Shown here one piece after another: positions 19,729 through 24,509 of a DNA stretch of 34,844 bases. The translations under genes and the position numbers were made by a program. Under the pieces are notes generated by a model. The model saw only the letters and a program-made list of their open reading frames with translations, had not been told where the DNA came from and ran no database searches. The first letter of the stretch is position 1, and each line of letters opens with the position of its first letter. Source of the DNA: Treponema sp. (GTDB lineage Bacteria; Spirochaetota; Spirochaetia; Treponematales; Treponemataceae); assembly GCA_012838745.1 (NCBI GenBank), contig DUOS01000036.1:1-34844 (forward strand). Direction: 5' to 3'.

Positions 19729-20946
19729 CTACAAGGGATTCTTATTTGTTAGCACCGTGTGCATAATTTCGAGGCCAGTATCAATTTGTTCTCGGTTGAT
19801 AATAAGCGGTGGAAGGAACCGAACTGTTTGGGGTCCTGCAGTAGTAACACATAATCCGGTAAAATCACCGATACCAGTTTCAAGGCAGGCGCGCTGAACA
19901 TGACCTGCAGTTGCCGGGCCTCCGGCGGTTCCGATAATGTCAAATCCAATCATAAGCCCCTTGCCCCGGATACTCGTAATAAACGGAAGATTCCATTCAC
20001 CAATTTTATTTCTTATGTAATCTCCGTTTTTAGTTACTGTTTCGAGAAATCCCGGTTTATTCATTTCTTTGAGTACAGCCATACCAGCGGCGCAAGCAAG
20101 AGGATTGCCACCAAAGGTTGATTGGTGATCTCCGGCAATAAATACTGGAGTAGCCTCTCCACGTGCAAGACAGGCTCCTGTAGGTACCCCTCCGGCGATT
20201 CCCTTGGCGAGTGTTACTACATCGGGAGTAATACCAAGCGTTTCTACCGCAAGTAGAGTGCCGGTCCTACCCATACCAGTTTGTACTTCATCGACTATAA
20301 GAAGCGCTCCCGCTTTTTTCGCGGCTTTGCAGGCAGCTTGTATCCATTTTGGATCAAGCAAGTTTACCCCACCCTCTCCTTGTACACACTCAAACATAAA
20401 AGCACAGACGGTTTCGTCAAATATAGTTTCAAATGAATCATAATCGTTTGCGGCAATGGTGCGAAAACCAGGTAGATACGGCGCGAACGCTTCGGGATGG
20501 AACTTATCTTGAGCAGTAGCTGCAAGAGTTGCGAGGGTTCTTCCATGAAAAGATTTTTCAATTGTTACAATAGTTTTCTTTTCTGCCTTACCTGTTTTTT
20601 GTGATTCTGTGTGCCCATACTTTCTTGCAAGTTTTATCGCAGCTTCGTTTGCTTCTGCACCTGAGTTGCAAAAGAAAACTCTATCCATACTGGTTAATTT
20701 AAGTAGTTCATTAGAAAAAGCAAGGCCAACATCAGAATTATAGTAATTGGAAATATGGATTTGTTTGGCCACTTGTTCGGTAAGGGCTGCAACAAGGGCG
20801 GGATGATTATGCCCTAAACAGTTCACGCCAATTCCGCTTACAAAATCGAGATATTTCTTTCCCGATATATCCGTAAGAACCGAGCCGTTACCCTGTGAAA
20901 ACACAATAGGTAAGCTCCCGTAGTTATTTATAATTTTTCCAGTCAT
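19729..20946 (-). CDS. argD: Acetylornithine aminotransferase
   Basis: ArgD is a PLP enzyme that converts N-acetylglutamate semialdehyde to N-acetylornithine with glutamate as donor. Class III aminotransferase features are present: SGIGVNCLGHNHP, FCNSGAEANEAAIKLARKYG, the PLP-pyrimidine contact LIVDEVQTGMGRTG, and the Schiff-base lysine in TLAKGIAGGVPTGA. STFGGNPLACAAG follows as expected. Length 405 residues is typical. AGGAG precedes the ATG at 20946, which lies 12 bases after the argB stop. It is the last clear arg gene of the argJ-argB-argD series. Because succinyl-diaminopimelate aminotransferase activity is known for some ArgD proteins, a dual lysine role is possible but not shown. Confidence 0.94.
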   Translation of the reverse strand: MTGKIINNYGSLPIVFSQGNGSVLTDISGKKYLDFVSGIGVNCLGHNHPALVAALTEQVAKQIHISNYYNSDVGLAFSNELLKLTSMDRVFFCNSGAEANEAAIKLARKYGHTESQKTGKAEKKTIVTIEKSFHGRTLATLAATAQDKFHPEAFAPYLPGFRTIAANDYDSFETIFDETVCAFMFECVQGEGGVNLLDPKWIQAACKAAKKAGALLIVDEVQTGMGRTGTLLAVETLGITPDVVTLAKGIAGGVPTGACLARGEATPVFIAGDHQSTFGGNPLACAAGMAVLKEMNKPGFLETVTKNGDYIRNKIGEWNLPFITSIRGKGLMIGFDIIGTAGGPATAGHVQRACLETGIGDFTGLCVTTAGPQTVRFLPPLIINREQIDTGLEIMHTVLTNKNPL

Positions 20947-20958
20947 TGGGTTCTCCTG

Positions 20959-21831
20959 TTAGATTAACATGGTTCCGATACCGCGATCGGAAAACATTTC
21001 GATTAGTAGCGCATGCGGAACCCGACCATCAATAATATGAGTTCGCGGAACACCGCCCTTAAGCGCTTCCACGCAACATTCAATTTTTGGAATCATACCA
21101 GAAGAAATTACTCCCGTGGCAATCATAGATGGAATTGCAACATGATCAATGCGCTTAATAAGACTCGAAGGATCATTGATATCTCGCAAAACACCGGGTA
21201 CATTGGTTAGCTGCACGAACTTTTCTGCCTTGAGGGCTACGGCGATTTTAGCCGCGGCAGTATCTGCATTGATATTGTAGCGATTCGTATCACCTGGCTC
21301 ACCAAGTGCAACCGTGGAAACAACGGGTATATATCCCTGGCTCATAAGTGAGGTAAGGATTTCTGGCTCTACAGAAGTTATATCTCCCACAAAGCCTAAA
21401 TCGACGCCATCCTTGTTCATTTTTTTTGCACGAAGCAAGCCACCATCAACTCCACTTACCCCAACAGCTTGGCCTCCAGCTTGTAAGAGGAGACCGACAA
21501 TGTCTTTATTAAGCTTGCCGGTGAGTACCATCTGAACAATTTCCATGGTCTCTGCATCCGTATACCGCAACCCATTTACAAAGCGAGACTCTTTCCCGGT
21601 TTTTTCCAGCATGGCATTAATTTCTGGCCCTCCACCGTGAACTAACACCGTGTTAATACCAATAGTACTCAAAAGAACAATATCCTGCATCACGGCCGAT
21701 TTTAGATTTTCGTTGAGCATAGCATTACCACCGTATTTAACGACGATAGTTTGTCCTACATATTGTTTAAAGTATGGAAGCGCTTCAATGAGCAGCGTTG
21801 CCCATTCTTCGTTTCCCAGTTGATTGATCAT
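20959..21831 (-). CDS. argB: Acetylglutamate kinase
   Basis: ArgB phosphorylates N-acetylglutamate, the second step of arginine synthesis. The amino acid kinase fold shows [47 protein letters not shown] and [10 protein letters not shown]. The C-terminal ATP-binding portion contains [19 protein letters not shown] and [21 protein letters not shown]. The N-terminus ([19 protein letters not shown]) is longer than the shortest ArgB proteins and resembles the arginine-sensitive class, where an N-terminal helix helps form the inhibited hexamer, so feedback inhibition is plausible. The ATG at 21831 overlaps the argJ stop by ATGA, and GGAG lies upstream, which indicates translational coupling to argJ. 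Confidence 0.96.
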
Positions 21832-23045
21832 GTTCGGTAATCTCCATTTATCTTTACATATTCATAGGTTAAATCGCAGCCCCAGGCGGTGCCGGTTCCG
21901 ACCCCGTCTTCAATAACAATTTTAATAATCACCGTTCCTTCAGAAAGGATAATGCGTGCCCTCTCCTCGTCAAAATTTAAGGGGACACCCTTTTCAAATA
22001 CTGCAACCTCTCCAGAACCGCTATTAAAAAACACGCTCGCTTTTTCTGGATTAAAACATTCACCGGAATATCCCATGGCGCACAAGATTCTACCCCAGTT
22101 AGCGTCTTTACCAAAGAAAGCTGCTTTTACGAGACTAGAGGAAATGACACTCTTTGCCAAAGCTCTTGCAGAGCGGTCGTTTTTTGCGCCAATAACCGTA
22201 CATTCTAAAAGATGTTCTGCGCCTTCACCGTCTCCAGCAATTTTCCGCGCCATCTCGGTGTTAATAGTATTAAGCGCATCCACGAACACCCGATAGTTGG
22301 CGTTTTTGCGTGAAATAAGCGGATTGCCGGAAAGGCCATTGGCAAGAATTATTAGGGTATCATTAGTACTCGTATCACCGTCTACACTGACGCAGTTATA
22401 GGTTTTCTCTACACTTTCACGCAGTGCAGCATTGAGCATTCGGGGAGTTATAGAACAATCGGTAGTTATTACAGAAAGCATTGTCCCCATGTTAATATGA
22501 ATCATACCAGAGCCCTTGGCCATGGTACCGAGTTTTACAGCTTTACCACCGATTGTAGTTTCGATCGCAGTTTCTTTGTGTTGGGTATCAGTAGTCAATA
22601 TTGCTTTGCGTGCGAGAACGTTTCCCGTTTTCGATAGTCCTGCACAGAGTTCTGGTATCCCAGACTCTATGGCGTCAATATTAATTTGTTGGCCTATTAC
22701 CCCGGTTGAACAAATAAGAACATCTTGTTCAGGTAACCCGAGCTCAACGGCTGCGGCATTTGCCATTCTTCGCGCTGCTTGATAGCCTTGTTCGCCAGTA
22801 CATGCATTTGCATTTCCCGCATTCAAAACCACCGCTTGGGCTCGACCGTTTGAGATATGTTTTTTAGTAAGTTTAACCGGCTCTGCCTTTACAAGATTTT
22901 TGGTAAAGACTGCGGCCGCACTACAAGGAACTTCTGATTCTACTAAGGCGAGATCTTCAGTACTGCGGCCTTTCTTAATGCCACAATGTATTCCGTTTGC
23001 GGTAAATCCTGCGGGAGCACATACCCCGCCATCAATAATTTGCAT
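21828..23045 (-). CDS. argJ: Bifunctional glutamate N-acetyltransferase / ornithine acetyltransferase
   Basis: ArgJ recycles the acetyl group from acetylornithine to glutamate, and some members also use acetyl-CoA. It is made as a precursor that self-cleaves before a threonine; the site is visible as GDTSTNDT. Other signatures are [45 protein letters not shown] and [18 protein letters not shown]. The start is set at 23045 (MQIIDGG), with AGGAG 6 bases upstream; upstream in-frame codons are not preceded by such a site. It is the first structural gene of argJ-argB-argD. The 5' leader has an ARG box, a promoter and a candidate Arg-codon leader peptide. argC is missing from the cluster, so it must lie elsewhere. 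Confidence 0.95.
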
Positions 23046-23088
23046 AATTGCTCCTATGAATAGAGGAACTGAAAGATTCATTGCATCA

Positions 23089-23108
23089 TGTATTCCTACA
23101 CGGATACA
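23089..23108 (-). repeat. Second leader hairpin upstream of argJ
   Basis: On the minus strand TGTATCC and GGAATACA pair with one bulge around GTGTA. It sits about 45 bases before the argJ ATG and has no T-run, so alone it is not an intrinsic terminator. It could be part of the leader-folding switch described for 23139-23166. Confidence 0.4.
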
Positions 23109-23138
23109 GGATGTCAGAAAATCAGCTGGATTTCAATA

Positions 23139-23166
23139 CCGTTCTACAGGGAACGGGTCGTTGTAG
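23139..23166 (-). promoter_or_regulatory. Mutually exclusive stems after the arg leader peptide (attenuator-like)
   Basis: In the minus-strand transcript CTACA (23162-23166) can pair with TGTAG (23144-23148), or CCGTTC (23151-23156) can pair with GAACGG (23139-23144). The pairings interlock, so only one can form at a time. The first begins about 17 bases after the leader stop codon, within reach of a ribosome paused on the Arg codons. There is no T-run, so any switch may act through translation or Rho instead of intrinsic termination. Confidence 0.4.
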
Positions 23167-23182
23167 AGGAAATTTGGTACGC

Positions 23183-23242
23183 CTAACGGCGATAGCGAGA
23201 AAGGAGAAGATTTAAATCGAAAAGAATAGTTGTTTTTGTCAT
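23183..23242 (-). CDS. Candidate arginine leader peptide (19 aa, ends R-Y-R-R)
   Basis: On the minus strand ATG at 23242 opens a 19-codon frame, MTKTTILFDLNLLLSRYRR, ended by TAG at 23183-23185. Three of its last four codons are arginine (CGC TAT CGC CGT). AAGGA stands 9 bases before the ATG, and the predicted transcription start (near 23268) gives a 5' leader of about 26 bases, as in known amino-acid leader peptides. It lies about 140 bases upstream of argJ, the first gene of the arginine operon. Family knowledge: ribosome stalling on codons of the pathway's own amino acid controls trp, his and leu operons, while arginine operons are usually described as ArgR-controlled. That the ORF is translated is an inference. 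Confidence 0.5.
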   Translation of the reverse strand: MTKTTILFDLNLLLSRYRR

Positions 23243-23274
23243 ACTTGTTTATCCTTTTTACTGCGGATAAGGTT

Positions 23275-23304
23275 ATTGTAGCGACTGTGTATAAATAAGG
23301 TCAA
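23275..23304 (-). promoter_or_regulatory. Promoter of the argJBD operon
   Basis: On the minus strand: TTGACC (23299-23304, 5/6), an 18-base spacer and TACAAT (23275-23280, 5/6). Transcription would start near 23268, giving a leader of roughly 220 bases before argJ that includes the candidate leader peptide. Confidence 0.6.
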
Positions 23305-23311
23305 GTATAAC

Positions 23312-23328
23312 CATGCATAAAAATGCAG
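23312..23328. promoter_or_regulatory. ARG box (ArgR/AhrC-type operator)
   Basis: CATGCATAAAAATGCAG contains a perfect palindrome, TGCAT-AAAA-ATGCA, and agrees with the Bacillus AhrC box consensus CATGAATAAAAATKCAA at about 15 of 17 positions. It lies 7 bases upstream of the -35 hexamer of the argJ promoter. An ArgR-family protein must be encoded elsewhere. A single box is visible; ArgR usually binds paired boxes. Confidence 0.6.
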
Positions 23329-23354: not shown

Positions 23355-24509
23355 TCAAAATTCCATAGGACGCTTGTTATCTGCAAGACGACGGGAAAGA
23401 TATTTCTTATCGAGATCTAAGCGTTCAACTAAGGTTCTGGTTTGTTCAGCAGAAAGAAGATTTTGCTCGGCAAAAAGGTAGACAACGGCACGTTCAGCAA
23501 GTAGTGGTACCTTGAGTGCATTCATATGTTCAAGGGATGGTACGGGTCCTTCAAGATAGGTTGAGCGAAAGAGACGAAAGAGTTCCGAAGATTGTGGTTC
23601 ATACCGCATATTCCTCAATTCCTTTTCAAGTGGACTTAAATCGCCGACACTAGCGCGCTGCCCGAGTGGTTTGAGGGTAAAGTATGTATACTCTTTACCT
23701 GGCAAGTAATGATGTGAATCACACCGCGTACAGTAATTTGGTTCTAATGGATCATTGGCATCCCGGTCTCCACCCACTATTATCAGCGGATCAAAAAACA
23801 AGGCGGGGCATTCCTCCCCGTCTACTACATAATACCGGTAGGTGTTGTGTGCATTTTCTAAGCATTCTTGATGTTCGCAATAGGCTGATAAAGGATAAAT
23901 ATCCGTAGATGTTTCCATAAGCAAGCGCGCGGTTGCATTGAATATTTCGCCGCGAAAATTGAGCAAGAGGGTGGGCATAACAAAAACGAGGCCACGAAGT
24001 TCTGCCTCTCTTTTAACAAGATACGCCAACCGCTCATCGTAAAAAGCAGCCTCGTCCAATATCCACGTACCCACATAGGGATTATCTCGTATAAGATCTT
24101 CTAAATCGAAGGAATTACTAATGGTAGCAATATTTTTTCCACAGCGTTCAAATCCGCCTCGAAAAGCTAGCGCATCTTCGGGATAATCAGGAAATCTTTT
24201 AGAATCAAGGGAGTAACGTACAAAAAAAGTATTACGACGGTCTGCAGTACCAATACCACTTTCCGATTCAAACAATTCCTTTTGACTGCCTCCACCGCTC
24301 GTAAGCCATGAAAGAGATGGACCTTTTCTGCGAGCAACTTCTGCATCACGCCATAACCGTGCGGCATATTCAGTCTTTCCCGATCCCATCGGGCCAATAA
24401 CCAAAACAGTGCGGGCAGGTTCAATAAAATCGAAATGAGCATTCTCTTCGTGAATAGCTACAGAAGGAAATCCGAGACTTTTATATAGGGAGCCGGTATG
24501 GGTATTCAT
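23355..24509 (-). CDS. tdk: Divergent thymidine kinase (TK1-like) with C-terminal extension
   Basis: TK1-type kinases phosphorylate thymidine for the salvage route to dTMP. Walker A is GPMGSGKT (39-46) and Walker B is ILDEAAFYD (150-158). FVMPTLLLNFRGEIFNATARL (about 176-196) corresponds to the family D-FRG-x-F segment that precedes the lasso region. LSAYCEHQEC, NAHNTYRYY, IIVGGDRD and YCTRCDSHH supply the zinc-lasso elements, with cysteines C211, C216, C260 and C263; the first pair is C-x4-C rather than the usual C-x2-C. At 384 residues it is about twice a normal TK1, with a 35-residue N-terminal extension and over 100 extra C-terminal residues. It follows clpB but has its own extended -10 eight bases before the ATG. 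Thymidine is the best guess for the substrate, but the enzyme could be altered. Confidence 0.75.
   Translation of the reverse strand: MNTHTGSLYKSLGFPSVAIHEENAHFDFIEPARTVLVIGPMGSGKTEYAARLWRDAEVARRKGPSLSWLTSGGGSQKELFESESGIGTADRRNTFFVRYSLDSKRFPDYPEDALAFRGGFERCGKNIATISNSFDLEDLIRDNPYVGTWILDEAAFYDERLAYLVKREAELRGLVFVMPTLLLNFRGEIFNATARLLMETSTDIYPLSAYCEHQECLENAHNTYRYYVVDGEECPALFFDPLIIVGGDRDANDPLEPNYCTRCDSHHYLPGKEYTYFTLKPLGQRASVGDLSPLEKELRNMRYEPQSSELFRLFRSTYLEGPVPSLEHMNALKVPLLAERAVVYLFAEQNLLSAEQTRTLVERLDLDKKYLSRRLADNKRPMEF

Follow-up and report, generated by a model that had tools for sequence, protein, structure and literature searches.

The argJBD operon in the window (the whole 34,844-nucleotide stretch of DNA analysed here) is preceded by a short ORF that ends in a cluster of Arg codons, and related spirochaetes carry counterparts of it. 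We consider it probable, if some way from certain, that this ORF encodes an arginine leader peptide whose Arg codons would stall ribosomes and so work a Rho-dependent, non-classical attenuator of argJBD, and that the leader is inherited within this spirochaete order, the operon being argJBD here and argCJBD in relatives (Table 1). The 19 codons, the upstream AAGGA and the Arg-Tyr-Arg-Arg-stop ending (CGC TAT CGC CGT TAG) reported in the initial annotation are all present, as is the 26-nt gap between a predicted transcription start near position 23268 and the ATG at 23242. The ORF is Shine-Dalgarno (SD)-led and lies between the promoter and the first structural gene, and its cluster of codons for the pathway's own amino acid is conserved in orthologues, which are the broad marks of a leader peptide. 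By itself, the ORF is not beyond chance within the window, where 3 of 27 SD-led ATG ORFs of 11–50 codons have Arg-Arg or at least three Arg in the last five codons; its significance comes from conservation in relatives, not from window statistics.

Table 1. The arginine operon, its leader and the neighbouring control elements (positions in the window)
Feature	Position	Strand	Remarks
Thymidine-kinase-like gene	23355-24509	-	Weak Pfam TK match; upstream neighbour of the arg leader
ArgR operator (ARG box), TGCATTTTTATGCA	23314..23327	-	No mismatches to TGNATWWWWATNCA
Sigma-70-type promoter, TTGACC-N18-TACAAT	23275..23304	-	-35 at 23304-23299, -10 at 23280-23275; not above chance alone
SD of leader ORF, AAGGA	23256-23252	-	9 nt before ATG 23242; read from sequence
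Arginine leader peptide ORF (candidate)	23242..23183	-	19 codons, MTKTTILFDLNLLLSRYRR and stop; from sequence and counterparts in relatives
C-rich, G-poor stretch, proposed rut	23143..23242	-	C minus G = +0.17; putative role
P1 hairpin, CGCC-GUUA-GGCG	23180..23191	-	Last Arg codons, stop codon and next bases
P2 hairpin, CCGUUC-ccugua-GAACGG	23139..23156	-	RNAalifold consensus; no U-tract after
Third hairpin, CAUCCUGUA..	23084..23113	-	Among relatives recognisable in G003 only; no T-run
argJ, first gene of argJBD (probable start)	21828..23045	-	Pfam ArgJ, 488 bits
argB (acetylglutamate kinase)	20959..21831	-	Pfam AA_kinase; after argJ in relatives too
argD (class III aminotransferase)	19729..20946	-	Pfam Aminotran_3; after argB in relatives too

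The longest argJ ORF, with its ATG at 23081, opens 12 codons too early. Because most homologues align from residues 12–13 of this longer ORF, homology beginning at about Met13, and because the ATG at 23045 has an AGGAG SD, the latter is probably the true start. With this start the leader would be 36 nt longer than the initial annotation had assumed, and its account of the ORF and the hairpins stands. A canonical argC is missing from the window operon, and an argC-like gene of ~30% identity lies on another contig (L110). Of the nine genus members that have the operon, eight keep the thymidine-kinase-like gene on its upstream side; no such gene was detected in G011.

Twelve genomes of the genus were compared, nine of which carry the arg operon. 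All nine have, at a fixed position, an SD-led ORF with a terminal Arg cluster, located in front of argC, or of argJ in genomes with a relocated argC; no member kept the operon while lacking the ORF or its Arg codons, the outcome that had been named in advance as counting against a leader. The endings directly before the stop codon are RRRQA, RRRRA, RRR, RLRRQAY and RYRR, and the leaders of the eight other members have an AGGAG-type SD at the equivalent place. In the nearest relative (G003), argJ is the first gene and the leader before it reads MKNTHSIISRINLLRLRRQAY; in the members with argC before argJ, the leaders precede argC and read MTDQCCETFSALCLSGFHLFRALRRRQA, MNLASTVTAYPSFLLLRRRQA, MHHDSSHLHTLNPFSLSSLRRR, MTMLVWNKNVSIIQSPLSLLPSLRRRRA, MNMHGSPDYICITQSKLNLLRTLRRRQA, MLSRHADISLVSRDGFSPRFRTLRRRQA and MVMYLSAVLSVISQSSSPSSALLRRRRA, each followed by a stop codon. 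The window leader is among the most diverged of the leaders compared. A covariance model of the leader region, searched against the 274-genome family of the window organism, identified exactly one site in each operon-carrying genome of the genus. Weak matches of the same model (E 5e-4 to 7e-3) occurred at L126–L129 in four genomes of other genera (G045, G140, G238 and G059). The leaders of relatives strongly support the central proposal of the initial annotation, that an arginine leader peptide would control the arg operon.

We located argC in 394 genomes of the order and read the upstream DNA for ~60 of them. Arg-ended leaders, most of them with an Arg pair or triplet, were found before argC in three other families, f2, f3 and f5, where leaders were picked by their Arg ends and the Arg counts are thus not blind. 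Family f2 had such a leader at its one locus. In family f3, with named records such as Spirochaetaceae bacterium UBA6076 and Spiro_12, 13 of 18 loci have a leader ending in RR, RRR or LRRP and two more one ending in Arg-Lys, and two or three of the 18 argC upstream regions had no leader. In family f5, the leader was present at 7 of 29 informative loci and lacking from ~22 of the 29 argC upstream regions. Other genera of the window organism's own family, Treponema included, had no leader, and ARG boxes alone were seen there. In other orders and classes, ~49 argC upstream regions showed no convincing Arg-ended leader, and none was found in the upstream regions of argF, argG and argH, where gene starts or orientation were assigned crudely in some cases.

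The terminal enrichment of Arg was pronounced. Arg-Arg occurred in the last five codons of 28 of 32 leaders compared to 19 of 504 other SD-led ORFs, and at least three Arg in the last five codons of 23 of 32 leaders compared to 6 of 504, counts that come from related genomes and, beyond the genus, from leaders chosen for this very feature. All six Arg codons (CGT, CGC, CGA, CGG, AGA and AGG) are used at the ends of the leaders, in contexts that otherwise differ in sequence (CGTCGTCGTTAA, CGTCGACGTTGA, CGCGTTCGTAGATAA and TATCGTAGGTAA). That Arg is written with different codons across families, with no convincing leader seen elsewhere, indicates that Arg coding itself was selected. It also bears on the idea that the ORF is incidental, with ArgR alone in control and the conserved nucleotides serving as an RNA element. 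For that idea speak the perfect ARG box with an argR gene, and the RNA-level conservation of CGCCGTNRGGCGTA, which holds also in leaders with a shifted stop codon; but Arg is kept across families despite different codons and RNA sequence, the SD and ATG are kept in frame, and length differences are whole codons, so we regard it as very improbable.

Arginine synthesis is classically described as being under ArgR control. The general statement in the initial annotation that arginine operons are usually under ArgR still holds here: the promoter has an ARG box, ~10 nt upstream of the -35 element, and an argR gene is present in the window's genome and in eight other genomes of the genus, the two marks of an ArgR regulon. 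The features of the earlier promoter and leader picture were confirmed, but this perfect operator was missing from it. Among the leaders, 27 of 32 have an ARG box with at most one mismatch within 130 nt 5' of the ORF, compared to 103 of 4020 random 130-nt windows. Two overlapping ARG boxes are found in G003. ArgR accounts for transcription initiation only and leaves the leader ORF unexplained. With the promoter ARG box and the argR gene both in place, the leader would therefore be a second layer on ArgR, not a substitute for it, and leader and repressor would act together.

In most relatives TTGAC lies ~53–65 nt 5' of the leader ATG, and in an apparently leaderless group it lies 35–39 nt 5' of it. 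At four f5 loci (L170, L177, L182 and L188), all without an SD, the distance from the first base of TTGACA to the leader ATG is exactly 35 nt; the leader peptide there would thus come from a leaderless mRNA.

We examined the RNA structures 3' of the Arg codons. The interlocking stems some 17 bases past the stop codon and the further hairpin before argJ are all present as described earlier, and no T-run was found after them, again as described. P1 is invariant in all nine genus members and, never varying, gives no covariation. P2, conserved in the genus as CCGUUCC/GGAACGG, has three pairs changed on both sides in the genus alignment, with 2 of 500 shuffles scoring as high. A CTACA (23166–23162)/TGTAG (23148–23144) stem starts 16 nt past the leader stop and overlaps the CCGTTC (23156–23151)/GAACGG (23144–23139) stem; it is unique to the window genome. 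The alignment of related leaders that the initial annotation had called for bore out the terminal Arg codons and the compensatory changes in P2, but not the CTACA/TGTAG stem. Family f3 has a counterpart pair, GGCG-NNGAC-CGCC directly after the stop codon together with another hairpin that shows compensatory changes. Seven f3 leaders (L137, L138, L139, L141, L146, L149 and L152) have a conserved GGCGNNGACCGCC hairpin directly 3' of the stop and largely share the N-terminus of the peptide (for example MKRSYPLYLP, MRPSFPYYLP).

A choice between the stems as the switch, which had also been proposed, did not survive. The CTACA/TGTAG stem is absent from G003 and the other relatives, and in most genus leaders P2 is predicted to persist without a ribosome as well as with one parked on the first Arg codon or on the stop codon. 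A classical trp/his-type attenuator, in which Arg stalling would pick an antiterminator over an intrinsic terminator via interlocking stems, is in our judgement improbable. Conservation of the P1 and P2 hairpins would suit it, and so would the 3' region of the G003 leader, where a GCCGG..CCGGC stem followed by CATTTTTTT (seven T) is terminator-like and competes with P2; but a T-run of this kind after P2 is missing in the other genus members, and a hairpin with a T-run was found in only 3 of the 32 leaders, two of these inside argC and none in the window leader. A conserved intrinsic terminator is absent from the leaders, and we rejected both an intrinsic terminator as the switch and a classical attenuator with an exclusive stem pair, there being a single conserved interlocking stem whose predicted folding barely depends on the ribosome.

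Control at translation, with ribosome position refolding the RNA to free or hide the argC/argJ ribosome-binding site and no premature termination, also appears unlikely. The lack of an intrinsic terminator agrees with it, as do CCTCC/GGAGG pairing around the argC SD in some f3 relatives and the precedent of Salmonella speF, which pairs an Arg-codon uORF with sequestration of the ribosome-binding site (PMC6386406). However, predicted access to the argJ/argC SD was near-constant across ribosome positions in nine of eleven folded leaders, shifting modestly in G003 and G011 only, and no f3-type SD hairpin was found in the genus of the window organism. For want of a consistent change in predicted access, sequestration of the argC/argJ SD was rejected for the genus. 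Pairing of the leader SD with the CU-rich end of the ORF, striking at first sight, was likewise dropped, as it did not exceed what shuffled ORFs give (mean z of -0.64 within the genus and of -0.46 overall).

The base composition of the leaders pointed to Rho. Across the final 60 nt of the ORF plus the 40 nt that follow, C minus G was +0.193 in leaders (positive in 32 of 32) compared to -0.027 in upstream regions that have no leader (p about 2e-16 by a Mann-Whitney test, a value that overstates independence as the compared genomes are related) and 0.00 ± 0.08 in random stretches, the C-richness being in part a consequence of Leu, Ser, Pro and Arg codons. Rut sites are C-rich, G-poor, unstructured RNA (PMC7815308), and a mapping study has documented Rho termination in a spirochaete (PMC10319736). 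The rho gene (TIGR00767) was found in all 12 genomes of the genus, so that both a putative loading region, C-rich and G-poor, and Rho itself, as in a Rho attenuator, are present. The initial annotation had suggested a switch acting on translation or through Rho rather than on an intrinsic terminator; the Rho arm fits the data best and the translational arm is less favoured. With no terminator, no consistent RNA switch and an excess of C over G, Arg stalling that shields a rut region is therefore the favoured reading.

According to this model, the transcript is under ArgR control, and the leader ORF would be translated first on it. If charged tRNA-Arg runs short, ribosomes would stall at the terminal Arg codons, and stalled or queued ribosomes would cover the C-rich stretch and let RNA polymerase pass. 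When arginine is plentiful, ribosomes would finish the leader and leave; once they are off, Rho would gain the spacer and the C-rich end of the ORF as an entry site and terminate transcription before argC/argJ. Arginine sensing by the leader is likely, judging from the sequences compared, and since the arrangement recurs in dozens of relatives the cell probably gauges arginine by ribosome stalling. Translation of the leader, stalling and the direction of control are as we infer them, and the Rho step would be the putative last link.

The signal could be either uncharged tRNA-Arg or arginine acting on the nascent chain. Fungal AAP, TnaC and SpeFL are models for nascent-peptide arrest, in which an Arg-rich C-terminus inside the ribosome tunnel would respond to free arginine, or to some related metabolite, and not to tRNA-Arg charging. 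Arg abuts the stop directly in 20 of the 32 leaders, an N-terminal motif resembling M-x-R-S-[FY]-P-x-Y-L-P is retained in one f3 group, and the two f3 leaders ending Arg-Lys favour a peptide effect, as charge is kept there rather than codon. However, the last Arg can stand anywhere from 0 to 3 codons ahead of the stop, and the genus shows no conservation in the remainder of the peptide, which favours the codon model. A Pfam scan of the eight leaders of at least 21 residues (the window's 19-residue peptide fell outside it) gave no match to PF10940 (DUF2618) or any other family, and NCBIfam gave no leader-peptide match. We therefore think arrest by the peptide itself rather doubtful, and stalling on Arg codons remains the preferred reading.

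The closest known system is speF ORF34 of Salmonella and E. coli (SpeFL, PF10940). In Salmonella, two consecutive Arg codons of this short leader ORF sense arginine, Rho terminates transcription in the leader as proposed here, and a hairpin lies just 3' of the leader stop codon (PMC6386406). It differs in controlling ornithine decarboxylase, the window leader preceding arginine synthesis genes; in having its Arg pair internal (codons 12–13) and its stop-adjacent Arg dispensable; and in a peptide unrelated in sequence. The trp, his, leu, thr, phe and ilv attenuators likewise have a leader ORF first on the transcript, rich in the product's own codons, but unlike them the leaders described here have no conserved terminator/antiterminator pair or U-tract. 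In leaders of the MgtL and TnaC type, the position of the ribosome on the leader ORF decides whether Rho can reach a rut region. They respond to proline decoding/Mg2+ or to free Trp, whereas tRNA-Arg is the signal proposed here, with a putative Rho step. The proline-codon work on MgtL is cited in PMC7815308. Arginine T-boxes also sense arginine supply at the RNA level (PMC1262725), but the window leader encodes a peptide, and Rfam covariance models, T-box included, gave no match in the leader region.

Two surveys (PMC1262725, PMC2965389) do not include arginine among the amino acids for which they describe ribosome-mediated attenuators. The actinobacterial one saw no conserved RNA element in front of arginine operons (PMC1262725), and the 2010 terminator survey reported no arginine case, with leader-peptide systems confined to Proteobacteria, Actinobacteria and, as a new addition, Firmicutes (PMC2965389). 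The initial annotation knew of no such peptide in spirochaetes; in the openly licensed literature, where an older description could be missed, we likewise found neither an arginine leader peptide of an arg operon nor an amino-acid leader peptide of a spirochaete. Within that literature, leader-peptide control would be new for an arginine operon and for spirochaetes.

In the window organism itself, argF is present, and neither argG nor argH was found in its assembly, which is 95.6% complete; argH was not found in the sister genome G003 either. The arginine pathway of the two may be truncated, or the assemblies incomplete. The diverged leader together with the lack of argG and argH from the assembly means that control could be decaying here, and it may be retuned or decaying in the window organism, being clearest in sister species. 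For the order as a whole, we offer as a tentative reading, possible but short of probable, that the leader family is a second layer sensing tRNA-Arg or arginine over ArgR by way of Rho, and leaderless in one branch; the Arg codons abut the stop, and in that branch the leader ATG lies where transcription should start. The arginine operon here combines an ArgR operator with a conserved arginine leader peptide. The ~30 natural variants offer a means to test the control of an operon by stop-adjacent Arg codons without an intrinsic terminator, and the same set also lets the reliance of such leaders on Rho be tested.
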